Shown here: piece after piece, positions 38,339-59,213 of the stretch
How positions within the stretch are numbered: position 1 is the stretch's first letter
How the letters are laid out: the number at the start of each line of letters is the position of its first letter
Source of the DNA: a virus
Reading direction: 5' to 3' (one strand)
Length of the DNA stretch: 64,000 bases
IMG/VR virus record: IMGVR_UViG_3300032235_000911
Span: 31,645-95,644 of that record
Notes under the pieces: generated by a model
What the model was told of the DNA's origin: nothing
Databases searched by the model: none
The model's input: only the letters and a program-made list of their open reading frames with translations
Made by a program: the position numbers and the translations under genes

Positions 38339-38971
38339 TTAGGAATCTTCTTCACTATCTAAAACTTCTTGGTAATCCCAAAAAATCTGTTCTAGTCTTG
38401 TAGACATTTCATACTTTCCATTTATAAAATCTACAAGACCAACTTTATATAAGTCAATGGTAATTTGTTCTGCGCTTTCGTGCGCTGCATTGTGTAATTG
38501 TACGGCAGTTTTTTCATTATTTCCAGTAAATAAATATAAATTTCTTATATCATTGTTTTGTTTATTTTTATCTATGTGATGTACGATTTCATCTTTTTCA
38601 AGAAATCTACCGATCTCTTTTTCCATAACTAAAATATGTTCAAAAATATAATTTCCGCCTTTTCTATCTTTTTTTCTTGGATGATCTTCATCGACAATTA
38701 TCTGTCGATAGCCTCTACCTTGATTGTATCTAACACCACCATTATTAATTTTTCTTAGAGATGTTCTTATATTTTTTTTATGTTCTTCTGAATATTTCTT
38801 ACCAGTTTGCTTCATTTTAGTTGAGCAAGATTTACAACGGTGTTTATTACTAATTGCCTCTTTTCTTACCGCACTTGAATAAGGTATCTCCCTCTCTCGT
38901 TTACAAAATTCGCACTCAACTAAAACTATCTTTTCAAACCATGTGCCTTCTTTTACTATGCTTTTAATCAT
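38339..38971 (-). CDS. HNH homing endonuclease
   Basis: 210 aa. N-terminal zinc-binding part: CEFCKRE...CKSC. HNH core: FEHILVMEKEIGRFLEKDEI and VHHIDKNKQNNDIRNLYLF, the same subfamily as the HNH at 29657-30232. The ATG at 38971 has GGGAG 8 nt upstream. A TATAAT lies at 38990-38995 and could be its own -10 element. It sits between PhoH and the HExxH gene with no other purpose evident, as expected of a mobile free-standing endonuclease. Confidence 0.8.
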   Translation of the reverse strand: MIKSIVKEGTWFEKIVLVECEFCKREREIPYSSAVRKEAISNKHRCKSCSTKMKQTGKKYSEEHKKNIRTSLRKINNGGVRYNQGRGYRQIIVDEDHPRKKDRKGGNYIFEHILVMEKEIGRFLEKDEIVHHIDKNKQNNDIRNLYLFTGNNEKTAVQLHNAAHESAEQITIDLYKVGLVDFINGKYEMSTRLEQIFWDYQEVLDSEEDS

Positions 38972-39021
38972 TTTTATTTCTCCCACTTCATTATATAGTG
39001 TTGAAAAAATAAAAAAGCAAC

Positions 39022-40353
39022 CTAAAGAATACTTGCGGCCAAACTTGCAACGGAACTCCGCTCGCCCTTCTGCAAAGTTATATGACCGGCTAATTCAAAG
39101 TCTTTGAACTTCTCAACGGCATAAGTTAAACCGTTTGTAGTGGCATCAACATAGGCATTATCGATCTGTTCAATATCGCCAGTTAGGATGATTTTTGTAT
39201 CTTCACCGACGCGAGTTACGATAGTTTTTAGTTCGTGCATTGAAAGATTTTGTGCTTCGTCGATAATGATAAATGCGTTGCTGATCGAGCGTCCGCGAAT
39301 GAAAGTAAGCGCTTCCATTTCGATTGTTCCCTTCTCAACAAGCATTTTTAGATGCTCTTTGTCGTCGCCCATTAGGAACTCAAGATTGTCTTGAACTGGA
39401 GCGAGCCAAGGTGTCATTTTCTCTTCAAGAGTGCCTGGTAGGAAGCCGATATCGCGGCCCATAGGCTGCACAGGACGCGATACAATGAGTTTCTTGTAGG
39501 TTGTGTCCGCAAGGATCTGTTGAAGCGCTGCAGCGATGGCTATGAGCGTTTTACCGCCGCCTGCACGACCAAGAATCGATACAATCTTGATATCTGGGTC
39601 CATGAGCATATCGAGTGCGAAGTGTTGTTCTTTGTTTTTTGCACGGATATCCCAGACACCGTCTGAGAACTCTTGAACCTTGCGTAGTGCATGGTTATAG
39701 TTCTTAAACTTAGCAAGCGCAGTCTTTTTTTCGTTAGCATTTGAAACAAGCATTACGAATTGATTTGGATATAATCTCTTATCTTTTTCGGCAATATAAA
39801 GTTTTTCACCTTGATAAAAACGGTCAATAATCGCATCGTCTACGAGGTGAGTTGTAAAGCCGGTATAGACTTCTTCAAGTTTTTCTACGACCTGGTTTGG
39901 GACATAATCTTCAGTTAGAAGACCAAGAGCATCGCACTTTACGCGAACATTAATATCTTGTGAAACAAGAATAACTTGTGGTTTTTCTTTTAGTGTTTCG
40001 TCGCTTTCTGTGATTGTTTTAACAGTAAAAGCAGTACAAATGATTTGATTATCTGGATCAGACCAGGTCAAGTTATCTGGCAATAACTCTTGTTCTGCCG
40101 AAAGAACTGTTAGTGTTCCAAGGGCTTTTCCAAGCTTGATTCCGGTGGCCAAACTACCCTTCTCGCGTAGTTCGTCAAGGATACGGATTGTTTGACGAGC
40201 GTGGGCACCAACGCCATCTTGACGCTTTTTGTGCTTGTCTACTTCCTCAAGAACCTTGAGTGGAAGTACTACGTCGTTCTTTTTATAACTGTATAGTGCA
40301 TTTGGATCGCTTAGTAGAACGTTCGTATCAAGAACGTAGATTTTTTTTGACAT
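39022..40353 (-). CDS. phoH: PIN-PhoH family ATPase/RNase
   Basis: 443 aa, a PhoH2-type fusion. Residues 1-140 form a PIN ribonuclease domain (IYVLDTNVLLSDP, SWSDPDNQII-like region, SQDINVRVKC). Residues ~235-443 are a PhoH ATPase with Walker A GRAGGGKT at 262-269 and Walker B AFIIIDEAQN at 360-369. PhoH proteins are very common in T4-like phages; the family is linked to RNA unwinding and cleavage, but its phage role is not settled. It overlaps purB by 26 nt and has its own SD (AGGGA). Confidence 0.9.
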   Translation of the reverse strand: MSKKIYVLDTNVLLSDPNALYSYKKNDVVLPLKVLEEVDKHKKRQDGVGAHARQTIRILDELREKGSLATGIKLGKALGTLTVLSAEQELLPDNLTWSDPDNQIICTAFTVKTITESDETLKEKPQVILVSQDINVRVKCDALGLLTEDYVPNQVVEKLEEVYTGFTTHLVDDAIIDRFYQGEKLYIAEKDKRLYPNQFVMLVSNANEKKTALAKFKNYNHALRKVQEFSDGVWDIRAKNKEQHFALDMLMDPDIKIVSILGRAGGGKTLIAIAAALQQILADTTYKKLIVSRPVQPMGRDIGFLPGTLEEKMTPWLAPVQDNLEFLMGDDKEHLKMLVEKGTIEMEALTFIRGRSISNAFIIIDEAQNLSMHELKTIVTRVGEDTKIILTGDIEQIDNAYVDATTNGLTYAVEKFKDFELAGHITLQKGERSSVASLAASIL

Positions 40354-41659
40354 TATTTGGTTTCCCTGTGTAATCGCTAACCCTTAAACTCAATATTTTT
40401 TCTTTTATTGTATCACTAATATGGAGATTTTCTAAAGTATTTTTTAATTTTTCTGCTGTTAGGGTTGCTCCTCTAGTTACTTCCTTAACTAGGTCGTAGG
40501 CGTTTTTTACATTCTCTTTTCTTAAGAGAGTCTGGATGCCTTCCGCGACCAGTTCGGGATATTTTTCCAGATCCTTTTGAATATTTTCCTCATTTATTTG
40601 TAGTTTTTTGAGTCCATCAACTATGTTTTTGGCTGCTAAAACAACATGTCCAAAAGGTACTCCAAGATTTCTTACGACGGTTGAATCGCTTAAATCTCGT
40701 TGTAGTCTTGAGACTTGTAACTTGCTGCTCATGAAGTTAAAAATAGCGTTTGCATACTCTAAATTACCTTCTGCGTTTTCAAATTCAATAGGGTTTATCT
40801 TCTGTGGCATAGTAGAAGAACCTACTTCTTCTGGTCTTACAGATTTTTTAAAATAACCATATGAAGTGTATAACCAAATGTCTCTTGAAAAGTTAATAAG
40901 AATATTATTAATCCTTACAACTGTCGCAAAATACTCAGCAAGCCAGTCATTATTGTCGACTTGAGTTGTGATTTCTGAGCGAAAAAGACCATAACTATTA
41001 CAAAAACTTTCAGCAAATTTGTTCCAATCGTGGTCAGGGTAAGCGAGATTGTGAGCATTCATGTTACCTACTGCTCCACCAAACTTAGCCTTGAAGGCGT
41101 GTACAAAAAGTTTCTCAAACTGTTCTTGTAAACGGTAAATAAATACCTCAATTTCCTTTCTTAGAACCGTTGGAACGGCGGCTTGACCATGAGTTCTTGC
41201 GGGGATTATAACATCACAACGCTCTGAGAACTTGATCATTTCCTTCTTTAGGACATGAAATTCTTTCACGAGATAGCCATTATCAAACTCGCGAATAGTG
41301 CGCGAAGTAGCGATACTATTGATGTCCTGGCTTGTCAGGCCAAAGTGAATATATTCTTTATATTGGGGAATACCCTGCATATCAAAACTTTCACGAATAT
41401 ACAGCTCAATAGCCTTTATGTCGTGACGAGTCTTCTTCTCTAAGCCTTGGATATAAGGTGGGACTATTGTGCTTTTGATTTGTTTTACAAGCCTAATTTC
41501 TTCTTTTGTAAGACCAAGTTTTAGTTCTTCTGCAAGTGCAAGGAAGTAATCAATTTCAATTTCTGTTTTTAGTTTTAACTGCGATTCCTCACTAAAATAC
41601 TTTGTAAGTTCCCGTGTTTTTTCACGGTAACGACCGTCAAGTGGGCTGATAGTTTCCAT
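40328..41659 (-). CDS. purB: Adenylosuccinate lyase
   Basis: 443 aa, typical length. The fumarase/aspartase-superfamily signature GSSTMPQKINPIEFENAEGN lies at 280-299, with HFGLTSQDI at 106-114 and the catalytic-histidine segment RTHGQAAVPT at 155-164. The enzyme splits adenylosuccinate to AMP and SAICAR to AICAR, releasing fumarate. No other purine gene is in the window. A phage copy would raise adenine nucleotide supply. Its start overlaps the SpoU stop (TAATG). Confidence 0.9.
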   Translation of the reverse strand: METISPLDGRYREKTRELTKYFSEESQLKLKTEIEIDYFLALAEELKLGLTKEEIRLVKQIKSTIVPPYIQGLEKKTRHDIKAIELYIRESFDMQGIPQYKEYIHFGLTSQDINSIATSRTIREFDNGYLVKEFHVLKKEMIKFSERCDVIIPARTHGQAAVPTVLRKEIEVFIYRLQEQFEKLFVHAFKAKFGGAVGNMNAHNLAYPDHDWNKFAESFCNSYGLFRSEITTQVDNNDWLAEYFATVVRINNILINFSRDIWLYTSYGYFKKSVRPEEVGSSTMPQKINPIEFENAEGNLEYANAIFNFMSSKLQVSRLQRDLSDSTVVRNLGVPFGHVVLAAKNIVDGLKKLQINEENIQKDLEKYPELVAEGIQTLLRKENVKNAYDLVKEVTRGATLTAEKLKNTLENLHISDTIKEKILSLRVSDYTGKPNNVKKNLRS

Positions 41660-42216
41660 TACGCTGCCGCCTTTTTATTGTGCTTTGTAACAAAATCATT
41701 CATTGCAATAGAGCCGGCTACAGCAGCATTAAGACTACGGACAGATCCAAACTGAGGAATAAATACGAAATGATCGCATAAAGCAAGCGTTTCGGGTGTA
41801 ATCCCCACCCCTTCTTCACCAAGAATAAGAAGAGGATTCCGAGGCCATTCGAAATCATGAAGAGCAACAGAGGCAGGCACAGTATTTTCAAGAGCAACAA
41901 AGGTGTAGGTATCCTTTAGCTTTAGTAGCTCGTCACGATTCTTTAATCTTTTTACATCAGTGTAGTGATGTGTTCCTACTGTCCCTCGTCGATCCCATTG
42001 TTTGCTTCCAAGAAAAAATACCTCCCGCCCGTTAAACGCATTTGTGCTGCGGATGACAGACGAGAGGTTAAAATCACCTTGAAAATTTTCCATGAGTACG
42101 GCATATGGAAAGGCCTTTGATTGCAAATCTTGTCGAATTAATTCAGTTGTCCACTTAATTAGTCGGTCATTTTTATATGAATCAATGATGTTTCGGTTAT
42201 CAACTGTATTTTCCAT
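41659..42216 (-). CDS. SpoU/TrmH-type RNA 2'-O-methyltransferase
   Basis: 185 aa, SPOUT fold with the three motifs: NFNLSSVIRSTNAF-like motif 1 (FNLSSVIRSTNAF), motif 2 NPLLILGEEGVGITPETL, and motif 3 FGSVRSLNAAVAGSIAMNDF, which form the knot and SAM pocket. It probably methylates tRNA or rRNA. A phage with its own tRNAs could use it to modify them. It sits in an operon with purB and phoH. Confidence 0.85.
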   Translation of the reverse strand: MENTVDNRNIIDSYKNDRLIKWTTELIRQDLQSKAFPYAVLMENFQGDFNLSSVIRSTNAFNGREVFFLGSKQWDRRGTVGTHHYTDVKRLKNRDELLKLKDTYTFVALENTVPASVALHDFEWPRNPLLILGEEGVGITPETLALCDHFVFIPQFGSVRSLNAAVAGSIAMNDFVTKHNKKAAA

Positions 42217-42458: not shown

Positions 42459-42497
42459 ATAAAAAACCCTACAAGAGGCAATGTACCACTTGTAGGG
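42459..42497 (-). terminator. Rho-independent terminator
   Basis: Leftward transcripts form a perfect 9-bp stem CCCTACAAG/CTTGTAGGG with a 13-nt loop, followed by TTTTTTATT. It stops transcription after the restriction-nuclease gene ending at 42515. Confidence 0.9.
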
Positions 42498-42514: not shown

Positions 42515-43072
42515 TTAAATAACTGTATCTGTTTCGCTTGTGTAGTAATCTTTAATCTCTTGTAGCTTGTTGCATAGTAAGCCAAACAAACCTTCTTCTG
42601 TTTCATTTATAAACAGAGTGTAACCTACCCTTCTTGCTGTCTCTACAAATACTCCACTTTGTCCTGATATTGTCTTTACTCCGTTAACTTCCCCATCGTA
42701 CTCAAAGGCTGGGCCTTCTAGATTAATAAGAATATTGCTCCGCGGGAAATTTAGTATAATCGCATAATCTCCATACTTATGGGCGCGCTCGACAGCGTTT
42801 TCATGTCCAGTTTGGAACTTATTTTCAGAACATCCAACAATTTTTCCATTATAACAAAGCCAACCACCATCTGGTTCAATTTGAGTTGGCTTTCCTGCCT
42901 TCGTCCTTGACGTTGTTGCCGTGCCGTACAAATCTTCTGTTGTAATGTACGGCTTTAGCGTAAACTCTGGGAATTCTGACACTGCTTTTTTTAAAGCACG
43001 AATAAAGATTTTTTCTGATTCCTCAGAATTATCGGTGATTGCTGCACGGCCTTTATTTTTTTGCATTGTCAT
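42515..43072 (-). CDS. EcoRI-like type II restriction endonuclease
   Basis: 185 aa. Residues 64-102 carry EPDGGWL, then GCSENKFQ, then ENAVERAHKYGDY. This parallels the catalytic segment of EcoRI (PDGG ... AEAKHQ ... NAIERSHKN); the PD-(D/E)XK triad would be D68, E83, K85. EcoRI is longer (277 aa), so this is a compact relative. The start lies 1 nt after the stop of a D12-class adenine methylase with GGGAG in that gene's last codons, the layout of a restriction-modification pair. Specificity cannot be read. Confidence 0.75.
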   Translation of the reverse strand: MTMQKNKGRAAITDNSEESEKIFIRALKKAVSEFPEFTLKPYITTEDLYGTATTSRTKAGKPTQIEPDGGWLCYNGKIVGCSENKFQTGHENAVERAHKYGDYAIILNFPRSNILINLEGPAFEYDGEVNGVKTISGQSGVFVETARRVGYTLFINETEEGLFGLLCNKLQEIKDYYTSETDTVI

Positions 43073-43073
43073 G

Positions 43074-43940
43074 TTATCTCCCTATGATAAGAAACTCTTT
43101 TGCCTTCTTGGCTTCAAAGCCAGTGGCTGTTTTTTTTCTTCTGCCAGCAGTATACGTCACATCATAGGTCTTGACAAGCATGTTATATTGCTTCTCGATA
43201 AGATAGTTTTCAAAAAACTGATCTCCCAAATCGCGATTCGTGATCCACGATTCTGCACCAGCAGATCTGCATGCTTCAGCAAAATCTACAACTTCCTTTT
43301 GCATATCATCATCAAAGTTTGTGGCATATTTTGTAAATCCGCCACGATATGGTGGATCCATGAAAACCCAGCTATTTGGTGTTACATGTGATAATACCTG
43401 TTTATAGTCACCGCAAAGTATTGTTGTATTTTGTAGAAGGTCGTGCCATTTTTTTACATTGTCTTTGTTATAAACTTCAGTAGTTTCATCCAGTAAGCCC
43501 GCTGGTGTTCCAAATCGATTGTTTGTATTTTTATTGATTTGCCAGATGCCATTGAAGCCCGTCTTCATCAAAAAATAAAGCACTGCACTTTCTTCTGTTT
43601 TTGTCCAATTTTTATAATCAAATGCATATTCTTTTCTTAGGTCAAAGTAAAACTTTTTTCTGTCTGCTTTTGATAGCGGCAGATACTGGTCTGATAACGT
43701 GTCTAGCTTATCTGTGAATGTCTGTAGATCGCTCTTTACGGATCGATATATGTCAATAATGTATTCATTTACATCATTAATGACAAATTTAGCTTTTGGA
43801 TTTATCTGTGCTGCTTTTAGGAAAACTGCTCCCCCGCCAAAAAACGGCTCAATGTATGTGTCAAAAGAGGCAGGTAACTCATCCTTGTAGTGCTTTAGCA
43901 TTTTATTTTTACCGCCAGCCCACATAAATAATGGTTTCAT
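43074..43940 (-). CDS. DNA N6-adenine methyltransferase, D12 (Dam) class
   Basis: 288 aa. It has the D12-class SAM motif at the N-terminus (PLFMWAGGKNKMLKHY, FxGGK type), the segment YIEPFFGGGAVFL, the KTGFNGIWQIN..NRFGTPAG target-recognition region and the catalytic VFMDPPYRGG (DPPY). It methylates adenine N6 at an unknown site. It precedes the EcoRI-like nuclease gene, so self-protection of phage DNA is the probable job. SD AAAGGAG, own promoter upstream. Confidence 0.9.
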   Translation of the reverse strand: MKPLFMWAGGKNKMLKHYKDELPASFDTYIEPFFGGGAVFLKAAQINPKAKFVINDVNEYIIDIYRSVKSDLQTFTDKLDTLSDQYLPLSKADRKKFYFDLRKEYAFDYKNWTKTEESAVLYFLMKTGFNGIWQINKNTNNRFGTPAGLLDETTEVYNKDNVKKWHDLLQNTTILCGDYKQVLSHVTPNSWVFMDPPYRGGFTKYATNFDDDMQKEVVDFAEACRSAGAESWITNRDLGDQFFENYLIEKQYNMLVKTYDVTYTAGRRKKTATGFEAKKAKEFLIIGR

Positions 43941-43970: not shown

Positions 43971-43999
43971 ATCCTACGCCTGTTTATATTTCTTGTCAA
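43971..43999 (-). promoter_or_regulatory. Sigma70-like promoter for the methylase/nuclease pair
   Basis: Minus-strand consensus -35 TTGACA, 17-nt spacer, -10 TAGGAT. It begins right at the end of the ClpP gene and leads to the methylase start at 43940. Confidence 0.75.
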
Positions 44000-44602
44000 C
44001 TAGGCTAAAATTTCGTCAACCATTCCGTACTTTAGGCAAGTCTTTGCGTCAAACCACAGATCCCGCTTGAGCATTTCTTTGATTGTTTTCTCTGGGATTT
44101 TTGTGTGTTCCCGATAGATTCCGTAAATTGTTTCCATAAACAATGTGCTGTTCTTGAAGTCATCTACCATATCTTCGTACTTGCCCCAAACACCACCACT
44201 TAGTTGGTGAATTAGCATGTATCCATGCTTATTAATGTAACGCTTGCCGGTTGCAACAACGCTCATTAGCGTAGCAGCAGAAGCCGCAGATCCGTCTACA
44301 ATCGTATTTACAGGCACTTTGCAACTCCGAATGTAGTCAACGGCGGCAAAGCCGTCAAGAAGGCTTCCGCCTGGACTGTTGATGTGTAGTTTGATTGGTG
44401 GCGGTGGAATTTCATGGGTAGCACCCAGCGTGATTTGTTTGACTGCAATGTCCCGCAGCATTTTATTTAGTGATAATACGCTGTCTTTTGTTACTTCTGA
44501 GTAGAAAAGAATACGGCTTCCGCTGCTTTCAACACAGCAGCCGTCTTCGTCTTCTTCAACTTTCAGTGGCTTATTGCCCGGATTTTTTCCTAATGTAAAC
44601 AT
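44000..44602 (-). CDS. clpP: ClpP-like serine protease
   Basis: 200 aa from the ATG at 44602 (AAAGGAG 6 nt upstream). The ClpP fold is clear: IKLHINSPGGSLLDGFAAVD (substrate groove), VDGSAASAATLMSV with S108, YMLIHQLSGG with H132, and RDLWFDAKTCLKYGMVDEI with D181 as third triad residue. No ClpX/ClpA is seen, so it may pair with the host unfoldase. It lies outside the virion block, so a head-maturation role is less likely than intracellular proteolysis. Confidence 0.88.
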   Translation of the reverse strand: MFTLGKNPGNKPLKVEEDEDGCCVESSGSRILFYSEVTKDSVLSLNKMLRDIAVKQITLGATHEIPPPPIKLHINSPGGSLLDGFAAVDYIRSCKVPVNTIVDGSAASAATLMSVVATGKRYINKHGYMLIHQLSGGVWGKYEDMVDDFKNSTLFMETIYGIYREHTKIPEKTIKEMLKRDLWFDAKTCLKYGMVDEILA

Positions 44603-44621
44603 TTTGTTCTCCTTTACAAGA

Positions 44622-44650
44622 ATGATAGCACAAGTCCAAATAGATTTCAA
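44622..44650 (-). promoter_or_regulatory. Sigma70-like promoter for clpP
   Basis: Minus-strand TTGAAA, 17-nt spacer, TATCAT, starting directly after the T-run of the upstream terminator and 20 nt before the clpP start. Confidence 0.75.
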
Positions 44651-45136: not shown

Positions 45137-45673
45137 ATGAAGACTATAACACAGAACTGTCAAAATTGTAACACTTTTTTTCAAGCACAACTTCGTGAAG
45201 TAAATAGAGGCAATGCTAAATATTGCTCAAAAAAATGTAGTGCCACTGGCGTAAAAAAGAAACTTTTACAAAAAGGAGTTGCCAGCAGAGAACATAACGT
45301 AGAATGTGCTTACTGCAAGAAAACATTCTACAAAAATGAATCAAAAATAAAAAATTCAAAAACAAATACACATTTTTGCTGTAGAGAACATAAAGATATC
45401 GGTCAAAGAATTGAGACTGGCATAAAACAAATCCAACCCAGCCACTACGGCGAAACATATACAGACTATCGCGCTCTTATTTTTCGCCATAAAGAGCATA
45501 AATGCGAACGCTGCAACTACGATAAACACCCAGAAGTTTTAGAAGTCCACCACAAAGACAGAAACCGTGAAAATAATACTGTTGAAAACTTAGAAGTTAT
45601 TTGCCCCAATTGCCATATGACTGAGCATTTCTTAAGTAAAGACGGCAAGTGGAAACTAAAACTAATAAAATAA
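45137..45673 (+). CDS. HNH homing endonuclease in the tRNA cluster
   Basis: 178 aa, the only rightward gene among leftward ones between 1 and 51.6 kb. Two Cys pairs near the N-terminus (CQNCNTFF...CSKKC) and a second set (CAYCKKTF) precede an HNH core: YRALIFRHKEHKCERCNYDK, VLEVHHKDRNRENNTVENLE, ICPNCHMTEHF. SD GGAGGAG lies 6 nt before the ATG. It is packed between tRNA-Ala (18 nt) and tRNA-Ser (2 nt), as expected for an element inserted into a tRNA array. Confidence 0.85.
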   Translation: MKTITQNCQNCNTFFQAQLREVNRGNAKYCSKKCSATGVKKKLLQKGVASREHNVECAYCKKTFYKNESKIKNSKTNTHFCCREHKDIGQRIETGIKQIQPSHYGETYTDYRALIFRHKEHKCERCNYDKHPEVLEVHHKDRNRENNTVENLEVICPNCHMTEHFLSKDGKWKLKLIK

Positions 45674-52390: not shown

Positions 52391-53109
52391 CCAGAGTGTC
52401 TATTTCCTTTTTTAATATTATCTACAGCCGATAGCGGTTGAAGGTTATCCAACCCCCAGCAGAGGCGAAAGGCATCATCTGCTGGGGTTTCATATGCAAA
52501 CCAAGACTTTGGCTTTATATGGTCAACGTGCCAATATGTCCCATAGTTATCCCAAGTCATACCCTCCTTTAATAAAGGCTCAAGATGGGCAACCAGTTGT
52601 TCAAGACTATAGCCGACAAGTTCTTCCCAAGAGCGACCGCCTTTACTTTCCTTGAGAGATTTCCACAGCGCAGTCCCGATAGCATGATCTAGTTTGCTCT
52701 GAGGATTGTTCTTTCTTTTTTCCCTTGAATGTTTTTGTGCCTCTGCAAGCCGCCCAGACTCTTTGTATTTCTGGTTTGCCTTTGCTAACGCTCCACTCTC
52801 TTTATATTTTTTCAAGTATTCTTTTCGTTTTTCTTTGTATTCAGAGGTTTGCGCTCTAGCTTTCCTTTTTTCTTTATATCCCTCAGTTTGATAATATGTT
52901 TTACCATACTCCCTCTTTTGCTCTTTGTAATGTAGTGCCGCCTCTCTTATCTTTTTTTGTTCTTTATAGTGCAATGTCTGCCTTTGCGCTTTAAGCTTTT
53001 GTTTAATACATTCTTTGCATAATGTGCTCAGCCCGTCCGACTTATTCTGGTCTTTATAATATTCATTAGCGTTCTTGTCCGCCTTGCATTTATTGCATAT
53101 TTTGTTCAT
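52387..53109 (-). CDS. HNH homing endonuclease with repetitive basic linker
   Basis: 240 aa. N-terminal zinc ribbon (KICNKCKADKNANEYYKDQN...LCKECI), then a long Lys/Glu-rich linker with repeated YKEKRK/YKESG units (residues ~45-135), then an HNH-like core: HVDHIKPKSWFAYETPADDA and LCWGLDNLQPLSAVDNIKKG. It is leftward among rightward genes. It separates the intact 52202 gene from the 5'-truncated copy at 53183, so the insertion probably removed that copy's start. SD AAAGGGA. Confidence 0.8.
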   Translation of the reverse strand: MNKICNKCKADKNANEYYKDQNKSDGLSTLCKECIKQKLKAQRQTLHYKEQKKIREAALHYKEQKREYGKTYYQTEGYKEKRKARAQTSEYKEKRKEYLKKYKESGALAKANQKYKESGRLAEAQKHSREKRKNNPQSKLDHAIGTALWKSLKESKGGRSWEELVGYSLEQLVAHLEPLLKEGMTWDNYGTYWHVDHIKPKSWFAYETPADDAFRLCWGLDNLQPLSAVDNIKKGNRHSG

Positions 53110-53182
53110 ATTGTTCCCTTTGCGGAATGCCGCGTGTATCGTTCATTATAACTAGTTTCTTTATTTGTTTAAACCATATTTA

Positions 53183-53320
53183 TTTGACGCCCGTGGTATC
53201 CCGCTTGCCCGTGTGTGTATGGAATGCATCAACGTGAAGCTGGCAAAGTATCGGCCCGAAGTGTTGACCAACAGTAACTATGACTTGATGGATTGTCCCC
53301 TTGATGAGGATAGGTGGTAA
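53183..53320 (+). pseudogene. 5'-truncated copy of the 52202-52390 gene
   Basis: The frame reads FDARGIPLARVCMECINVKL followed by AKYRPEV, matching DSRGIETARVCDECIDAKR and AKYRPG of the 62-aa protein. No start codon or SD is present, and sequence upstream belongs to the HNH insertion. The frame ends with TAA 1 nt before the next ATG. Confidence 0.65.
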
Positions 53321-53321
53321 C

Positions 53322-53594
53322 ATGAGCAATGATATCATTGATGTCCCATTCGTCAACCTAACCGAGAAGCGCATCAAGTGGGCAGGGTTGCGGGTTACTC
53401 TACCGTTCGTCGCGTTCCTGTTTGGGTTCCTTATCATCCCCGTCGCTGCGACCTGTATGGGGGAAGCGCCGCAACTCATGACTGATATCTATGACCGTGG
53501 GGCTTTTATCTGTGGGGTATTCAGCGTGCTGGGTCTTGCCTTTGCTCTTGGTACATATATATTCGCCCTGTGGTATAGCAGCCGCTACGAATAA
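53322..53594 (+). CDS. Membrane protein with two to three helices, 90 aa
   Basis: Hydrophobic segments WAGLRVTLPFVAFLFGFLII (about 20-40) and GVFSVLGLAFALGTYIFALW (about 65-85) indicate two membrane helices joined by a periplasm-sized loop. The ATG at 53322 follows AGGTGG. It may have been translationally coupled to the now-truncated gene before it. No family recognised. Confidence 0.6.
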   Translation: MSNDIIDVPFVNLTEKRIKWAGLRVTLPFVAFLFGFLIIPVAATCMGEAPQLMTDIYDRGAFICGVFSVLGLAFALGTYIFALWYSSRYE

Positions 53595-53600
53595 TGATAG

Positions 53601-53640
53601 CCCCGCCCTGCCAATATGGGGGGCAAAGGGGGCCGGCCCC
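53601..53640. repeat. Boundary element, copy 2: hairpin plus GGGGCCGGCCCC
   Basis: CCCCGCCC...GGGGGGC hairpin after the stop at 53594, running into the 12-bp palindrome at 53629-53640. The -35 of the next unit starts 23 bp after the palindrome. Confidence 0.85.
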
Positions 53641-53662
53641 TGCTGACCACTGAAAAAAGAAG

Positions 53663-53729
53663 TTGCCCATCCTGCCCCACCCCTGTATAAAGACACCATC
53701 AGCGGCACGGAGCCGCAGGGAGAAGAAGG
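53663..53729 (+). promoter_or_regulatory. Promoter, 5'-terminal hairpin and SD of the 53730 gene
   Basis: TTGCCC, 17-nt spacer, TATAAA. Stem GCGGC/GCCGC with loop ACGGA at 53702-53716; 13 nt to the ATG, containing AGGGAG. Confidence 0.82.
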
Positions 53730-53816
53730 ATGCACAAGCCCAGCAAGTTGACCTTGACAGACATTCTCGGCTGCACTATGTTTATGGCGTTCTTCATCTC
53801 GCTGCTTTTCCTCTAG
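53730..53816 (+). CDS. 28-aa single-helix membrane microprotein
   Basis: Short polar start (MHKPSKLTLTDILG) followed by a membrane helix (CTMFMAFFISLLFL). It has a strong promoter and SD of its own and heads four tiny ORFs in a row. Function unknown. Confidence 0.6.
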   Translation: MHKPSKLTLTDILGCTMFMAFFISLLFL

Positions 53817-53824
53817 GAGTCACC

Positions 53825-53896
53825 ATGCGCCGGTCCACGTTCCTCTCCATTCTTTATGTCACCCTCGTTGTCGGCGGTGCCTACCTTTTCACCTAA
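53825..53896 (+). CDS. 23-aa hydrophobic microprotein
   Basis: AGGAG lies 5 nt before the ATG. After MRRSTF the chain is a single membrane helix ending GGAYLFT. It lies 8 nt after the previous stop. Confidence 0.5.
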   Translation: MRRSTFLSILYVTLVVGGAYLFT

Positions 53897-53914
53897 TACC
53901 CGAAAGGAACTCCC

Positions 53915-53989
53915 ATGTTTCCCTACGCAATGGCAGCAGTTTGGGTCGTTACCGCAATCTTCAGCCTTTCACAGAATGGAGCAGAGTAA
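53915..53989 (+). CDS. 24-aa hydrophobic microprotein
   Basis: AAAGGA lies 5-6 nt before the ATG; sequence MFPYAMAAVWVVTAIFSLSQ plus NGAE. Its stop overlaps the next ATG (TAATG). Confidence 0.5.
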   Translation: MFPYAMAAVWVVTAIFSLSQNGAE

Positions 53990-54102
53990 TGATTCGCTCA
54001 ATCAAGCGATTCTTTGGCATCCCGCCTAATGTGTACGACCTTCCCTATCAGCAGCGCGTCTATATTGTCGCGCTTTCAACCGCAGTTCAGCGCATTAAAT
54101 AG
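53989..54102 (+). CDS. 37-aa small protein
   Basis: GGAG lies 7 nt before the ATG inside the previous gene's end. It starts MIRSIKRFFGIPPNVYDLPY and is basic and amphipathic. Fourth gene of the microprotein operon. Confidence 0.5.
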   Translation: MIRSIKRFFGIPPNVYDLPYQQRVYIVALSTAVQRIK

Positions 54103-54138
54103 GTTCTTTATATTTATTGCCTTTTATTATATTTTCTT

Positions 54139-54206
54139 TTGCCTCTGCCGCCTAATACTGGCATAACCACCCTGCCTCAATCACGAGGCTACGAAAGGGT
54201 CCGCTA
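54139..54206 (+). promoter_or_regulatory. Promoter, 5' hairpin and SD of the 54207 gene
   Basis: TTGCCT, 17-nt spacer, CATAAC. Stem GCCTC/GAGGC with a 6-nt loop at 54174-54189; GAAAGGG before the ATG. No palindrome upstream. Confidence 0.75.
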
Positions 54207-54431
54207 ATGGGTAAAAAGAAGCAGGAGATTGCCCCTGTTCATCAACGAATCTTGAATCTTTACAAGGCTTTTACCCTTGTCAATGGTTATCAGCCCTCAT
54301 ATGTTCAAGTTGGGCAAGTTCTGAACATCAGCGGCGCGGCTGTTGGCAACCATATTCGGCAGATGGAACGGGCTGGTCTCGTTCGTCGTCCGCCGGAGAA
54401 GTGGGGCCGAGGTCTGACCCTCCTTCGTTAG
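54207..54431 (+). CDS. Winged-helix DNA-binding protein, LexA N-terminal-domain type
   Basis: 74 aa. HQRILNLYKAFTLVNGYQPS and VGQVLNISGAAVGNHIRQME then RAGLVRRPPEKWGRGLTLL follow the LexA/MarR-like winged helix order: helix 1, P-containing turn, recognition helix, wing. There is no peptidase domain. It may bind SOS-box-like sites or the phage's own operators. It is the sole gene of its unit. Confidence 0.7.
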   Translation: MGKKKQEIAPVHQRILNLYKAFTLVNGYQPSYVQVGQVLNISGAAVGNHIRQMERAGLVRRPPEKWGRGLTLLR

Positions 54432-54438
54432 AGTAAGT

Positions 54439-54477
54439 CCCCGCCCAGCCTTTTTGGTGGGCAAACGGGGCCGGCCC
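54439..54477. repeat. Boundary element, copy 3
   Basis: CCCCGCCCAGCC-TTTTT-GGTGGGC..CGGGG hairpin after the stop at 54431, merging with GGGGCCGGCCC at 54467-54477. The flanks TTTTTGGTGG and CCACCAAAAA are also inverted repeats around the palindrome. -35 starts 24 bp downstream. Confidence 0.88.
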
Positions 54478-54500
54478 TGCTCAACCACCAAAAATAAAAG

Positions 54501-54569
54501 TTGCACGCTGCCCGTCAATCGGGGTATAAAGTCTTTCATACGGTGGATGGACCGCCGAGGAGACTGCCG
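54501..54569 (+). promoter_or_regulatory. Promoter, 5'-terminal hairpin and SD of the 54570 gene
   Basis: TTGCAC, 18-nt spacer, TATAAA, with an AAAAATAAAAG tract before the -35. Stem CGGTGG/CCGCCG, loop ATGGA (54541-54557); 12 nt to the ATG with GGAG. Confidence 0.85.
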
Positions 54570-54773
54570 ATGAGCGACAAGAAGTTGATTCCTAACCATT
54601 CAATGATTGACTATCGGCGTGGCGAGTATGCCGATGCTGTCACGCGTCTCCTCACAAATCTCGAATACGATAACAATCGTAAGAACCTTCCTCCCTACCT
54701 TCTCGAGATTGTAGATGATGCACTCGCAAAGCGTAAAGCGTGGATGAACGAGCCGCTCTATCGTGAGGGGTAA
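54570..54773 (+). CDS. Small hypothetical protein, 67 aa
   Basis: Charged, probably helical: SMIDYRRGEYADAVTRLLTN and YLLEIVDDALAKRKAWMNEP. No domain recognised. GGAG lies 7 nt before the ATG. The next promoter begins 7 nt after its stop. Confidence 0.6.
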   Translation: MSDKKLIPNHSMIDYRRGEYADAVTRLLTNLEYDNNRKNLPPYLLEIVDDALAKRKAWMNEPLYREG

Positions 54774-54780
54774 ATAAAAG

Positions 54781-54844
54781 TTGCACGCTGGCAGGAAGTG
54801 TGAGATAACGCCTCTGCCCGATGGACGGGCAACGGAGACAGACG
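54781..54844 (+). promoter_or_regulatory. Promoter, 5'-terminal hairpin and SD of the 54845 gene
   Basis: TTGCAC, 17-nt spacer, GATAAC. Stem GCCCG/CGGGC with loop ATGGA (54816-54830); then AACGGAGAC, 14 nt to the ATG. No palindrome upstream, but the AAATAAAAG tract is kept. Confidence 0.82.
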
Positions 54845-55099
54845 ATGGAAACGCCCAGCCGCCCCAATGCTCACATTCTTGACCTTTCAAACACGCTTGC
54901 CAACTGCCGTCCCATTGTTTCGCGTGATTGGCGGATTGTCAACGGTAAGGTCCACCTCATTACGGTTGTTCGCGATGGTCGCCCAGGCGTAGGAGCCTAT
55001 GAGGCAATCATCGTGAATGAAACGCAGTCCTGCCAGACTTGGGGAAAGAACGCTCGCACCCTGCTCGCCGCTGCCAAGCGTCGCGCTGGCACCCTGTAA
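54845..55099 (+). CDS. Small hypothetical protein, 84 aa
   Basis: A beta-strand-rich middle (DWRIVNGKVHLITVVRDGRP, YEAIIVNETQSC) and a basic helical end (ARTLLAAAKRRAG). No known family. Single-gene unit. The upstream in-frame ATG at 54821 lies in the hairpin loop and is rejected. Confidence 0.6.
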   Translation: METPSRPNAHILDLSNTLANCRPIVSRDWRIVNGKVHLITVVRDGRPGVGAYEAIIVNETQSCQTWGKNARTLLAAAKRRAGTL

Positions 55100-55106
55100 A
55101 ATGTGC

Positions 55107-55172
55107 TTGCATCCCGTTAAGCAGTCTGCTAAATAGTCTCAACATGCTGCATGGAGCAGCAGGAGAACGTCA
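55107..55172 (+). promoter_or_regulatory. Promoter, 5'-terminal hairpin and SD of the 55173 gene
   Basis: TTGCAT, 17-nt spacer, TAAATA. Stem TGCTGC/GCAGCA with loop ATGGA (55145-55161); AGGAG, 11 nt from stem to ATG. Confidence 0.82.
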
Positions 55173-55481
55173 ATGACCGTCGAGAGCAACAAGTTTTTTG
55201 CCCCTGTCAACTGCGCGATTATCAAGGATGGGGACGGTACAAAGCGTCACGCTGAGTTCGTCTATGCAAAGGACATTCCGACTGAGTTCCTGCCCGATGG
55301 TCTGAACAGTCTTGAACTGGAGAACAAGCGGCACCCGTGGAATGTGAATGGTCTGGCGTGGGATATGAGCGTCAATGCTTGGCGCAATATGAAGAACGCC
55401 GAGAATGTCAAGTCCTCGCTTGAACTGTTCACCTATTACAACCTGCCTGACAAGATGTATTCCTGCTGGCGGGAGGGGTAA
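55173..55481 (+). CDS. Hypothetical protein, 102 aa
   Basis: Mixed alpha/beta: FFAPVNCAIIKDGDGTKRHA, FVYAKDIPTEFLPDGLNSLE, and an aromatic end (LAWDMSVNAWRNMK, MYSCWREG). No domain recognised. It is followed 3 nt later by a LexA-like gene in the same unit. Confidence 0.6.
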   Translation: MTVESNKFFAPVNCAIIKDGDGTKRHAEFVYAKDIPTEFLPDGLNSLELENKRHPWNVNGLAWDMSVNAWRNMKNAENVKSSLELFTYYNLPDKMYSCWREG

Positions 55482-55484
55482 CAT

Positions 55485-55694
55485 ATGAGCAAACTGACGG
55501 CAAGGCAGAACGAAACCCTCCAAGTTATCAAAGCACATATCAAAAAGAATGGTTATCCTCCGACCATTCGTGAGATTGGTGCGGCGATGGGTATTGTTTC
55601 GCCCAATGGGGTTGCTGAACACTTGGACCACTTGGAAGGCAAGGGCTACATATCCCGCAATCATAGAATATCACGAGCAATCGTCGTACTATGA
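55485..55694 (+). CDS. LexA-type DNA-binding domain protein without protease
   Basis: 69 aa that parallel the LexA N-terminal domain almost end to end: LTARQNETLQVIKAHIKKNG, YPPTIREIGAAMGI, SPNGVAEHLDHLEGKGYI, SRAIVVL. E. coli LexA reads LTARQQEVFDLIRDHI..GMPPTRAEIA..SPNAAEEHLKALARKG. The cleavable C-terminal domain is absent, so it would be a non-inducible repressor of SOS-type genes or of phage operators. SD GGAGGGG. Confidence 0.85.
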   Translation: MSKLTARQNETLQVIKAHIKKNGYPPTIREIGAAMGIVSPNGVAEHLDHLEGKGYISRNHRISRAIVVL

Positions 55695-55700
55695 TTGAAA

Positions 55701-55740
55701 CCCCGCCCCGCCTTTTTGGGGGGCAAAGGGGGCCGGCCCC
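55701..55740. repeat. Boundary element, copy 4
   Basis: CCCCGCCCCGCC-TTTTT-GGGGGGC hairpin 6 nt after the stop, then GGGGCCGGCCCC at 55729-55740. -35 starts 23 bp downstream. Confidence 0.88.
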
Positions 55741-55762
55741 TGCCAGCCACTGAATATTTTAT

Positions 55763-55828
55763 TTGTCACCGGCACGGACTCCCGCTATAACGGTTTCACG
55801 GTCGATGAACGACCGATGGAGACAGAAG
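55763..55828 (+). promoter_or_regulatory. Promoter, 5'-terminal hairpin and SD of the 55829 gene
   Basis: TTGTCA, 17-nt spacer, TATAAC. Stem CGGTCG/CGACCG with loop ATGAA (55799-55815), then ATGGAGAC; 13 nt to the ATG. Confidence 0.82.
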
Positions 55829-56146
55829 ATGCCGAAGTTGACCAGCAACCGCGCCGCCGCTGCACTCACCCACGGTCGCAAGTTCAGCAGCAAGAACACG
55901 AAGGTCGATTCATCCGGCCTTTACCTCTTCGGCAATCATATTGCCCGCGACGCTGGTGAGGGCCATGTTGCAATCACCAACCGTGGGCATTTCACCCTTA
56001 CCACGAAGGACCGGCTGAACGCCATTCCTAATGTTTCAATCTATCAGAAGAACTATCAATGGTTCTTGAATGATAAGGCGTGGGACGGTGAGTGGGTTAT
56101 TGTTGCGCCCGATGGTACGTGGGCACCCGAAGTCAAGATTTGGTAA
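55829..56146 (+). CDS. Hypothetical protein, 105 aa
   Basis: Basic N-terminus (RAAAALTHGRKFSSKNTKVD) and beta-rich rest (GHVAITNRGHFTLTTKDRLN, WFLNDKAWDGEWVIVAPDG). No family recognised. Single-gene unit ending at a convergent boundary. Confidence 0.6.
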   Translation: MPKLTSNRAAAALTHGRKFSSKNTKVDSSGLYLFGNHIARDAGEGHVAITNRGHFTLTTKDRLNAIPNVSIYQKNYQWFLNDKAWDGEWVIVAPDGTWAPEVKIW

Positions 56147-56155
56147 TAGAGTAAA

Positions 56156-56199
56156 CCCCGCCCCCACCGATATTTGGTGGGCAAGCGGGGCCGGCCCCT
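56156..56199. repeat. Boundary element, copy 5 (convergent site)
   Basis: CCCCGC-CCCACC-GATATTT-GGTGGG-caa-GCGGGG hairpin followed by the palindrome at 56188-56199. It lies between a rightward gene end (56146) and a leftward gene end (56232), with no promoter next to it; here only a transcript-end role is possible. Confidence 0.85.
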
Positions 56200-56231
56200 T
56201 CTGACCCCTACTTTTGGGGTCGGGCTACATT

Positions 56232-56300
56232 CTATCGCCAGTTTAGAATGATACCGGCACCGGCAACAAATGCAGCAAAGAATGACATAACAAGTGGCAT
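56232..56300 (-). CDS. 22-aa hydrophobic microprotein
   Basis: AGGAG lies 5 nt before the ATG at 56300. The chain MPLVMSFFAAFVAGAGIILN plus WR is a single membrane helix. Last gene of a leftward microprotein unit. Confidence 0.5.
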   Translation of the reverse strand: MPLVMSFFAAFVAGAGIILNWR

Positions 56301-56308
56301 CAAATCTC

Positions 56309-56389
56309 CTATCGACAGAGGAATCGTACAACCCCCACCGTCGTCACAAGCACAGTGGGGAGGAACGCACCAACAAGGAAATAAATCAT
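56309..56389 (-). CDS. 26-aa hydrophobic microprotein
   Basis: GGTGGAG lies about 10 nt before the ATG at 56389. The chain MIYFLVGAFLPTVLVTTVGV with VVRFLCR is a single membrane helix with a basic end. It is 8 nt upstream of the next microprotein start. Confidence 0.45.
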   Translation of the reverse strand: MIYFLVGAFLPTVLVTTVGVVRFLCR

Positions 56390-56472
56390 TAGTGCAGGAC
56401 TCCACCGTTATTGCGGTATTCTTCAAGGCTGATGATATCTGCTTCCGTTGCCGGTCGGGGAGGCGGTTCGGA

Positions 56473-56703
56473 CTACAAGCCAGCAGCAAGAAGCGTTTCA
56501 TGAACGAACTGGGTAAGAATACCCGTCAGCGTTGCAACATCATTCATACAGGCAGCGGCAAACCCGTCCTTCTGGACCTGCTCAATGTCGCCAGCGTTAA
56601 CAGCGGTGTAATCGTCCACAACCTCTGCAACCCGCTCCGAGAACTGGGTAAGGTGGCCAAGCAGCGTCATCTGGACTTCTTCCTTTGTCAACTTGTCACT
56701 CAT
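56473..56703 (-). CDS. Small acidic helical protein, 76 aa
   Basis: It starts MSDKLTKEEVQMTLLGHLTQ and is helical throughout (AEVVDDYTAVNAGDIEQVQK, LTGILTQFVHETLLAAGL). GGAG lies 6 nt before the ATG at 56703, 1 nt after the preceding stop. No family recognised. An upstream in-frame ATG at 56724 lies in the microprotein gene and has no SD. Confidence 0.6.
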   Translation of the reverse strand: MSDKLTKEEVQMTLLGHLTQFSERVAEVVDDYTAVNAGDIEQVQKDGFAAACMNDVATLTGILTQFVHETLLAAGL

Positions 56704-56704
56704 G

Positions 56705-56788
56705 TTACTCTCCGATGCTGGCAAGTGCCAGCGTTGAAATGAACCCTACCACAAGGAAGGTGAGACTGTCAAACACGAACTGCACCAC
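56705..56788 (-). CDS. 27-aa membrane microprotein, GTG start
   Basis: GGAGG lies 6 nt before a GTG at 56788. The chain reads VVQFVFDSLTFLVVGFISTL then ALASIGE: one membrane helix. It is the first gene of this leftward unit. Confidence 0.5.
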   Translation of the reverse strand: MVQFVFDSLTFLVVGFISTLALASIGE

Positions 56789-56810
56789 CTCTTGCCTCCT
56801 GAGTGAGCGT

Positions 56811-56839
56811 AACTTACAGCATCCCCATGCCCCTGCCAA
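56811..56839 (-). promoter_or_regulatory. Sigma70-like promoter of the leftward 56232-56788 unit
   Basis: Minus-strand TTGGCA, 17-nt spacer, TAAGTT; the palindrome at 56862 lies 22 bp upstream of the -35 in the same relative orientation as on the plus strand. Confidence 0.65.
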
Positions 56840-56861
56840 CTGTTTTTTTTGGTGGTTGACG

Positions 56862-56873
56862 GGGGCCGGCCCC
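56862..56873. repeat. Boundary palindrome, copy 6
   Basis: GGGGCCGGCCCC between the leftward gene ending at 56912 and the next leftward promoter. Flanked by CCACC and an A-tract on the promoter side. Confidence 0.88.
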
Positions 56874-56911
56874 TCTGCCCCCCTACTTCTGGGCGGGCGT
56901 CGGGACTAGGT

Positions 56912-57589
56912 CTATCCGAAGAACTTTTCCTGCGCCGTCGTCAGATTCCGGCCACCGTGATACACCAGCCCGATTGCGATATCGCCTTCAATGGCGGGGA
57001 TATCATTCACATTGCCGTCAATGTAGAACGCCGCCTGTCGGGCCTCATCATTCGAGAATATGCGCGAATGGGGCTTGCCAAGGTTCACAAGGTTGTCGTA
57101 CTTACCGCCCAATGACTGCGTGATTCGCAGGTTCGCAGGGGCAACCGATAGGTCAAGGTGGAGACTCTTAGTGTATGCGTAGAAGATAACATCGGGGTAT
57201 GCACGGGCAACCTTGCACCATGCGTCAAGGTAGCTCTGGGAATAGAAGTCACCGGCATCATGCAACCGGACGACATTGTACGGCTTACGCTTGCGGGGTG
57301 TCTTGACAACCAGCGCGGCAAGGTCCGCGATGATAAGGTCCGCGAAGTCCGACCGCTGCGAAAGCGTCAGGTTGTGGTGACGCGCCGCGACAACATTCTT
57401 GAAACGATAGGTTCCCTGCTTTGCATAGCAGACACCGCGACAAGCCAGCGCGGCGGGGCAAGTGTTCATCTTCTCGCCGTTCATGGTAAAGTCTACATCG
57501 GCAGGAAGCCCGAAGCCGACGACGCGATACTCGCCGCCCGAAGTCTTCAACAGCTTTGCGTTGCCTTCCGTCCAAACCGCGTTCGCCAT
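56912..57589 (-). CDS. GP88-like protein (mycobacteriophage gene 88 family)
   Basis: 225 aa. The block CPAALACRGVCYAKQGTYRF with VVAARHHNL, then VVRLHDAGDFYSQSYLDAWC and FYAYTKSLHLDL, is the pattern of the actinophage GP88/DUF family. Clustered cysteines (C..C..CYA) could bind a metal or Fe-S cluster. Biochemical function is unknown to me. It has its own promoter with a 5' hairpin, as do other cassettes. Confidence 0.7.
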   Translation of the reverse strand: MANAVWTEGNAKLLKTSGGEYRVVGFGLPADVDFTMNGEKMNTCPAALACRGVCYAKQGTYRFKNVVAARHHNLTLSQRSDFADLIIADLAALVVKTPRKRKPYNVVRLHDAGDFYSQSYLDAWCKVARAYPDVIFYAYTKSLHLDLSVAPANLRITQSLGGKYDNLVNLGKPHSRIFSNDEARQAAFYIDGNVNDIPAIEGDIAIGLVYHGGRNLTTAQEKFFG

Positions 57590-57655
57590 CGTCGTTCTCC
57601 ATCGGTGTCCGTCACCGTGAAAAGACTTATCTCACAAGTCGGGGTGGGGTGGCAA
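57590..57655 (-). promoter_or_regulatory. Promoter, 5'-terminal hairpin and SD of the GP88-like gene
   Basis: Minus-strand TTGCCA, 18-nt spacer, GATAAG. Stem CGGTG/CACCG with loop ACGGA (57603-57617), then ATGGAGA; 13 nt to the ATG. Confidence 0.82.
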
Positions 57656-57677
57656 ACTTTTTTTTTGGGGGTTGATA

Positions 57678-57689
57678 GGGGCCGGCCCC
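57678..57689. repeat. Boundary palindrome, copy 7
   Basis: GGGGCCGGCCCC, 22 bp upstream of the leftward -35 at 57655. A GTGGGCAAGC hairpin half precedes it on the minus strand. Confidence 0.88.
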
Positions 57690-57735
57690 GCTTGCCCACT
57701 TTTTTTCGTGAGCAGGGGGCCGTTCTATTTATAGA

Positions 57736-58149
57736 CTAATCAAACTGCCGCTCATATTCCTCAATTGCAGCATCCTTTATGCTCTCCCATTCCTCTGCTG
57801 TGAACATTGAGGTATTGATAACAGCAGCGGGCTGGAGGCTATCATCAAGGAGGTGAATTTGAATGATATCAACATCGTGGCCTGGACCGTCAATGTAATC
57901 GTTGACAGCGGCATAGACACGAAAGAGGTCAGCATCACGTTCCCAATCAACAACAACATTGTGACTATCGGAAACATGGGGAAGAACGGCAGCAGGCATT
58001 TTTTTTCCTCGTGCAGCATACTTGTTTGTATGCTTGCGGTTATCGCGAAAGGTACCAGCCTTTGTAACGCCATTGATAATGACAACCATAAAAGGGTCAC
58101 GGCTCTTGACGGAGCGAGGGTTGACCTTTATGGACTTCACGTTACGCAC
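57736..58149 (-). CDS. Hypothetical protein, 137 aa
   Basis: Basic N-terminal third (NVKSIKVNPRSVKSRDPFMV), acidic C-terminus (AEEWESIKDAAIEEYERQFD). GTG at 58149 is preferred because AAAGG lies 8 nt upstream; a GTG at 58158 is too close to it. Last gene of the leftward five-gene unit starting at 59142. No family recognised. Confidence 0.6.
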   Translation of the reverse strand: MRNVKSIKVNPRSVKSRDPFMVVIINGVTKAGTFRDNRKHTNKYAARGKKMPAAVLPHVSDSHNVVVDWERDADLFRVYAAVNDYIDGPGHDVDIIQIHLLDDSLQPAAVINTSMFTAEEWESIKDAAIEEYERQFD

Positions 58150-58177
58150 GGCTGGCACCTTTCACATTTAGATGATA

Positions 58178-58405
58178 CTACGGAACAACAATCTTGGCAA
58201 TACGGAAACGGTTATTCTTGTTTGTATTGCGGAACTCGCGGCTGATGTCTCGGGCGACCTTGCGGGTACGCAGGACCAGCGGACCCTTTTCGTCCACAAT
58301 GGTCTGCCAAGTCGGGGAGGCACTACCCCCCTGCCCCTTCTCCTTCCGGCTAACCTGCACGGCCCACATCGTATTGTGCTTCGTCGTCTTGAACTTGTAC
58401 GGCAT
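58178..58405 (-). CDS. Small basic protein, 75 aa
   Basis: Very basic (KFKTTKHNTMWAVQVSRKEK, RTRKVARDISREFRNTNKNN, RFRIAKIVVP) and probably nucleic-acid binding. GGAGG lies 6 nt before the ATG. Third from last gene boundary shows a short gap to the 58426 stop. Function unknown. Confidence 0.6.
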   Translation of the reverse strand: MPYKFKTTKHNTMWAVQVSRKEKGQGGSASPTWQTIVDEKGPLVLRTRKVARDISREFRNTNKNNRFRIAKIVVP

Positions 58406-58425
58406 CTCTCTATCCTCCTGCCCCT

Positions 58426-58903: not shown

Positions 58904-58905
58904 TT

Positions 58906-59142: not shown

Positions 59143-59149
59143 GAGTGGC

Positions 59150-59179
59150 TTTATCTCACAGGCAACCCCCCGCTGTCAC
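59150..59179 (-). promoter_or_regulatory. Leaderless promoter of the 59142 unit
   Basis: Minus-strand GTGACA, 18-nt spacer, GATAAA, then 7 nt and ATG. The palindrome at 59202 is 22 bp upstream. Confidence 0.6.
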
Positions 59180-59201
59180 CAAGTTTTTTTAGTGGGCGGT
59201 G

Positions 59202-59213
59202 GGGGCCGGCCCC
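59202..59213. repeat. Boundary palindrome, copy 8 (between divergent promoters)
   Basis: GGGGCCGGCCCC lying 22 bp from the leftward promoter at 59179 and 24 bp from a rightward -35 at 59238. Confidence 0.88.

Follow-up and report, generated by a model that had tools for sequence, protein, structure and literature searches.

The window analyzed in the current work is a stretch of 64,000 nucleotides (nt), corresponding to positions 31645-95644 of the linear, 95,644-base virus record IMGVR_UViG_3300032235_000911, and the system of interest is a pair of adjacent genes encoding an adenine DNA methyltransferase and a compact EcoRI-type nuclease. The record encodes myovirus baseplate and tail proteins and carries no phage integrase of family PF00589; its source is an uncultured tailed phage. 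The first gene of the pair (positions 43074..43940 of the window, minus strand) specifies a D12/Dam-class N6-adenine DNA methyltransferase of 288 amino acids (aa), and is followed after 1 nt by the second gene (42515..43072, minus strand) which specifies the nuclease of 185 aa, the whole being laid out as a two-gene operon. A promoter-like sequence TTGACA-17-TAGGAT (43971..43999, minus strand), retrieved by a consensus scan with 10 of 12 matches and representing a pattern only, ends ≈30 bases 5' of the methyltransferase gene. Directly 3' of the nuclease gene, a terminator-like hairpin followed by UUUUUU is found (42461..42497, minus strand), with a folding energy of -19 kcal/mol and a z-score of -4.1, none of 200 shuffled sequences being as stable. 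An initial annotation, made from the sequence alone, had placed both open reading frames (ORFs) here, 1 nt apart and behind a TTGACA promoter, and this layout was recovered in full; the hairpin is a feature absent from that annotation.

The catalytic and recognition block of the nuclease, PDGG..ENK..NAVERAHK, occupies residues 67-99 (42776..42874, minus strand) and reads P67-D68-G-G, E83-N84-K85 and N92-AVERAHK-99, exactly as first annotated. Residues D68, E83, K85, N92, A93, E95 and R96 follow the order of their EcoRI counterparts (D91, E111, K113 and N141-R145), as had been claimed; the accompanying claim of EcoRI spacing did not stand, the D-to-E distance being 15 residues in the window nuclease versus 20 in EcoRI, and the K-to-N distance 7 versus 28. 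The loop between ExK and NAxER is missing when compared to EcoRI, and the spacing is therefore a compacted one. The full motif arose by chance in 3 of 200,000 shuffles of the nuclease protein, and D, E, K, N, A, E, R and K are invariant in the aligned relatives. Since these relatives measure 170-200 aa, the small size of the nuclease is a trait of the family and not the result of a truncation. Ratios of non-synonymous to synonymous substitution rates (dN/dS) among the relatives range from 0.09 to 0.30, values that denote purifying selection on the nuclease.

When the window nuclease was used as a single sequence to search phages and viral contigs nothing useful was obtained, the sole lead from such searches being phrog_2400, which was found blind with an E-value of 0.0014. 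This is a protein of the Synechococcus phages S-BM1 and S-RIM2, both isolates on Synechococcus WH7803; it is assigned to the category 'unknown' in PHROGs, and the window nuclease is 26% identical to it. A phrog_2400 protein of phage S-CREM2 (gp11, OR473000) is labelled 'restriction endonuclease EcoRI' in its GenBank record, and the text of the S-CREM2 paper makes no mention of EcoRI (PMC10665884). With phrog_2400-type proteins as queries, relatives of the nuclease were found on 39 distinct viral contigs. A profile built from 14 members of this family, including the window protein, was compared to all Protein Data Bank (PDB) sequences and returned EcoRI as its five best matches (E-values from 5e-5 to 6e-4), with nothing else below 0.1. 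In profile-profile comparisons, the cyanophage family matched a group of five plasmid EcoRI-family enzymes at 95.3% (E-value 2.4e-8); the window protein matched the cyanophage family at 94.9% when taken alone and at 98.1% (E-value 8e-14) when combined with its four close relatives (from loci L079, L137, L138 and L139), and the window protein alone matched the EcoRI group at 12%. A blind scan of all six-frame ORFs of the record with the family profile ranked the window nuclease first with an E-value of 5e-7, the next best being 0.24. The EcoRI Pfam profile PF02963 does not match the window protein, the nearest phage relative (L067, E-value 0.0013) falling short of the cut-off, and no relative was retrieved from the bacterial and archaeal genomes scanned with the family profile. 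Taken together, the profile comparisons argue for homology of the phage nuclease family to EcoRI.

A PD-(D/E)XK fold is probable from the model of the relative L008, which is of good quality (predicted local distance difference test, pLDDT, 86.6). The order of elements in this model, being helix, strand, two central strands, helix and strand, fits the PD-(D/E)XK core, with D67 positioned just before the first central strand and E82 and K84 within the second. The first 17 weak Foldseek matches of the model include McrC, Mus81, SgrAI, Hef and FANCM, all of which are PD-(D/E)XK proteins, and do not include EcoRI.

The assignment of the first gene to the D12/Dam class, as initially annotated, is firm. 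Its product matches MethyltransfD12 (PF02086; E-value 5.6e-36, 125 bits), passes the curated cut-off of TIGR00571 dam (168 bits versus 115), is matched by the DpnII methylase 2dpm (E-value 1e-20), and contains the DPPY and FxGGGA-type motifs of Dam/D12 adenine methyltransferases. No second D12 gene is present on the 95.6-kb record. The best matches to this methyltransferase in the annotated phage collection are from the nuclease-carrying phages S-BM1 and S-RIM2 (46.7%), the next-ranked among the sampled records reaching 34% at most.

The association of the two genes was followed in both directions. With regard to linkage to METHYLTRANSFERASE, a D12 methyltransferase like that of the window was located within the fetched flank in 31 of the 39 contigs found through the nuclease. 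For the reverse test, 80 viral loci were fetched by means of the window methyltransferase alone (46-60% identity), the nuclease not being used, and each ORF was checked for the bare pattern E.K...NA.ER. In 42 of the 80 loci the pattern lay in the ORF whose end adjoins the start of the methyltransferase, and it was absent from all 1938 other ORFs of these loci. In most of the 42 loci the nuclease gene overlaps the methyltransferase gene by 1-4 nt or stops a few bases short of it. A natural fusion (L029:1887-3299), in which nuclease and methyltransferase form a single protein of 470 aa, is encoded by one relative. The phrog_2400 gene of S-BM1 and S-RIM2 is situated directly upstream of a DNA adenine methylase gene or one gene away from it. 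The nuclease comes first in the relatives and this order is reversed in the window phage, where the methyltransferase comes first.

Several cyanophages have an additional gene of ≈1 kb between the nuclease and the methyltransferase, examples being L005:4492-5580 (phrog_2558, weakly ParB-like), L020:2375-3412 (a similar protein) and L019:4216-5127 (phrog_5778). In S-CREM2 (L004), the EcoRI-like gene is near genes for an annotated Cas9-like virion endonuclease, a pyrimidine dimer glycosylase and an S-adenosylmethionine hydrolase, so that positions 1257-7733 of this phage represent a cluster of DNA-attack and counter-defence genes.

The nuclease position is occupied by proteins of three kinds, namely EcoRI-like (the phrog_2400 type), window-like (NACER/NAVER, in L079, L137, L138 and L139) and a large group carrying GGNAHER. 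The last of these is MunI-like: a blind PDB search found MunI from one sequence (E-value 1.7e-4), the group profile finds MunI 1d02 with an E-value of 4e-10, and two of three members tested pass the Pfam MunI cut-off (PF11407). Comparison of the window nuclease with the MunI-like group gave 15%. On a tree of 79 methyltransferases the nuclease kinds are interspersed, requiring 26 label changes where the minimum is 6. The methyltransferases of L117 (MunI-like) and L128 (EcoRI-like) are 98% identical, as is the DNA on both sides of the nuclease slot, and the slot proteins share 25%; likewise, the methyltransferases of L136 (MunI-like) and L139 (window-like) are 96% identical. The combination of near-identical methyltransferases and flanks with divergent slot proteins indicates that the methyltransferase stays constant and the nuclease next to it is swapped as a cassette. 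In L109, L120, L122, L130 and L134, a second D12 methyltransferase (PGGKTRAVKHILPLIP...) occupies the nuclease slot directly upstream of the methyltransferase; L109 is otherwise ≈93-96% identical to L107, whose slot holds a MunI-like nuclease.

This exchange bears on the sequence that is recognized. In EcoRI, Asn141, Ala142 and Arg145 of the NAIER segment read the AATT centre of GAATTC (PMC4081073), and MunI cuts CAATTG, which differs from the EcoRI site only in the outer pair (PMC5896346). Because the same methyltransferase would have to protect against both EcoRI-like and MunI-like nucleases, a shared AATT, or AATT with loosely read flanks, is the expected target. The target-recognition segment of the window methyltransferase, MKTGFNGIWQINKNTNNRFGTPAGLL (43491..43568, minus strand), varies little among the nuclease-linked relatives, the segment MKTGFNGIWQxNKNTxxRFGTPxGLL being nearly constant across all three nuclease kinds. 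A GATC system of the Dam class was rejected on the grounds that this segment departs from the P1 Dam-like type (FNGLTRYN...FNV), Q replacing the Dam-type Arg and the insert being longer, a trait common to the nuclease-linked group. The methyltransferase is predicted from these comparisons to generate N6-methyladenine at AATT-core sites, which are not GATC and need not be GAATTC; the initial suggestion of GAATTC as the site is therefore doubtful. The presence of GAATTC in the window, initially noted near 6127 and 16131, was borne out by nine sites, including those at 6126 and 16125, and the 95.6-kb record contains 15 versus 15.9 expected; GAATTC is thus not avoided, as expected of a self-marking phage, this being weak evidence.

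Based on homology, catalytic residues, operon layout, linkage, fusion, purifying selection and the exchange of the nuclease while the methyltransferase is kept, we consider it likely that the pair constitutes a phage-borne type II restriction-modification operon which marks the phage's own DNA and cuts DNA that is unmarked. A restriction-modification unit had been proposed in the initial annotation, and for the pairing of an EcoRI-type nuclease with a D12 methyltransferase in a functional unit of a phage, sequence comparison now lends this proposal strong support. The enzymatic activities of both proteins, AATT as the core of the site, dimer formation by the nuclease and action on host or rival DNA are matters of inference, and the mechanism would proceed as follows. 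After phage entry the operon would be read from its promoter, and the methyltransferase, being made first, would N6-methylate adenines within a short palindrome (most likely an AATT core) of the replicating phage DNA. The nuclease, a putative cut-down EcoRI-type PD-(D/E)XK enzyme and presumably a homodimer, would then cut unmethylated DNA bearing the same core, either that of the host or that of a co-infecting phage. The methyltransferase-first gene order would favour modification before restriction.

Several results weigh against the assignment of the pair to restriction-modification. When searched alone, the window nuclease passes the cut-off of no family in Pfam, NCBIfam or PADLOC, nor does it retrieve a meaningful PDB chain, and the profile of the window group found no PDB chain either. 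Its residue preceding NAxER is E, but G in EcoRI. The AlphaFold model of the window nuclease, generated before the close relatives L079, L137, L138 and L139 were found, is poor (pLDDT 49), and the Foldseek search of the PDB with the good L008 model gave no significant match. AATT is rare in the record (465 observed versus 667 expected, a ratio of 0.70, with GATC at 292 versus 336), and because several palindromes unrelated to it show the same or a stronger depletion, this rarity is no proof of the site. Finally, 28 of the 80 methyltransferase loci have no adjacent upstream ORF, from which it follows that the methyltransferase is often an orphan.

The last of these points bears on an alternative that we regard as unlikely, in which an orphan methyltransferase has the role of guarding phage DNA against the restriction enzymes of the host, and the nuclease is non-cognate and degrades host DNA or assists recombination. 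A nuclease is absent from the vicinity of many D12 methyltransferases in phages, these 28 close relatives have no ORF adjacent upstream, and 8 of the 39 nuclease contigs lack a methyltransferase close by. However, the one long record of the second nuclease subfamily, a 190-kb record without a neighbouring methyltransferase, carries a 49%-identical methyltransferase elsewhere, and linkage across divergent phages, gene overlaps, the fusion, and EcoRI/MunI-type exchange beside a near-constant methyltransferase are what cognate specificity predicts. Less likely still, though compatible with restriction-modification, is a selfish or homing module in which the nuclease gene spreads between phages through cleavage of genomes without it, the methyltransferase acting only as landing site and antidote. 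The precise replacement of the nuclease slot between 98%-identical flanks, the ≈1 kb extra gene of several cyanophages and the homing-type HNH genes nearby (38339-38986 and 45137-45673) would suit such a module, but the replacements are mostly of EcoRI/MunI type with few second methyltransferases, and not HNH or LAGLIDADG, and an EcoRI-type target is short and frequent instead of being a single long homing site. That the nuclease is inactive or decaying, or its motifs coincidental, is very improbable: its 26% identity to the cyanophage proteins and the lack of a database family above cut-off could be read in this way, but all catalytic and NAxER residues are kept, purifying selection acts on the relatives, chance seldom produces the motif, and phrog_2400 was found blind.

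As regards the use of the restriction-modification operon, the repeated replacement of the nuclease, and not its loss alone, is in our opinion easier to reconcile with an arms race among phages than with plain recycling of host DNA. We also put forward, as a tentative proposal about whose correctness we are somewhat doubtful, that aquatic tailed phages may share a platform in which one AATT-core methyltransferase serves as the common antidote for interchangeable compact nucleases (EcoRI-like, window-like and MunI-like). The slot would be swapped by recombination and the mark would stay compatible, so that the cassette would be a weapon of phages against other phages, with a password common to its carriers. 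Complete restriction-modification pairs are traditionally seen as weapons of bacteria against phages, and here a family of them appears to be built into phages. The compact nucleases (≈170-190 aa) may represent a natural minimal EcoRI, useful for asking which part reads AATT, and their exchange beside a fixed methyltransferase offers both a clean natural experiment on the evolution of restriction specificity and a direct test of phage self-marking to exclude competitors.

The operon is flanked by two HNH endonuclease genes of the homing type (38339-38986, minus strand, and 45137-45673, plus strand), and host-like genes lie around the pair (39022-42216 and 44000-44650, both minus strand), encoding PhoH with a PIN domain, adenylosuccinate lyase (PurB), a SpoU-type RNA methylase and a ClpP protease. 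Further away, window positions 53000-62200 comprise ≈9 kb with a guanine-plus-cytosine (GC) content of 0.50-0.54, compared to mostly 0.33-0.42 elsewhere, in which long ORFs are few. The same stretch contains at least eight dispersed GC-rich palindromic repeats of 46-54 nt with the core GGGGCCGGCCCC, for which no Rfam match was found, and is possibly a foreign, chimeric or non-coding repeat region.

Phage and virus restriction-modification as such is already known, as is an EcoRI-family enzyme beside a D12 methyltransferase on a Paracoccus plasmid. A literature search, with most subscription journals and REBASE outside its reach, retrieved no description of phage EcoRI-like/D12 pairs. Two points are new within the literature searched, namely the identification of phrog_2400 and related proteins as candidate compact nucleases of the EcoRI type with a D12 methyltransferase as cognate partner, and the cassette exchange with MunI-like nucleases. 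Among virus-borne systems, those of chloroviruses and marseilleviruses (CviAI, mel_015/mel_016) likewise combine an adenine methyltransferase with an adjacent nuclease, and are likened here by description; they belong to viruses of eukaryotes, GATC is the target of both CviAI and the marseillevirus system, and no nuclease exchange is described in the parts of the source consulted (PMC7253447). The same source provides precedents for both proposed uses, in that chloroviruses break down host DNA and marseilleviruses have been suggested to exclude other viruses (PMC7253447). The Paracoccus marcusii plasmid pCP157_17 has its EcoRI-family and D12 methyltransferase genes adjacent and in the window's order, methyltransferase then nuclease, but is a bacterial plasmid with larger proteins (384 and 238 aa), and BLASTP detected no direct similarity between its nuclease and that of the window. 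The EcoRI system (PF02963 with PF13651) shares the PD...ExK residues, NAxER in the same order, and adjacent nuclease and adenine methyltransferase genes. The window system differs from it in being phage-borne, in its shorter nuclease (185 versus 277 aa) that has no ExK-NAxER loop and no Pfam EcoRI match, and in its MethyltransfD12 partner of the D12/Dam class in place of the EcoRI methylase family PF13651; since N6_N4_Mtase or D12 partners are likewise found with EcoRI-family enzymes of plasmids, the PF13651 partner is usual and not strict. MunI (CAATTG) has the NAxER motif, and in relatives this slot next to the methyltransferase is filled by MunI-like nucleases; the nuclease of the window stands nearer to the EcoRI-like group. 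The phrog_2400 protein of S-BM1 and S-RIM2 is compact, carries the same motifs and is encoded near a related D12 methyltransferase, differing from the window nuclease in its sequence (26% identity) and in the reversed gene order, and the comparison supplies a likely function for this protein family listed as unknown.
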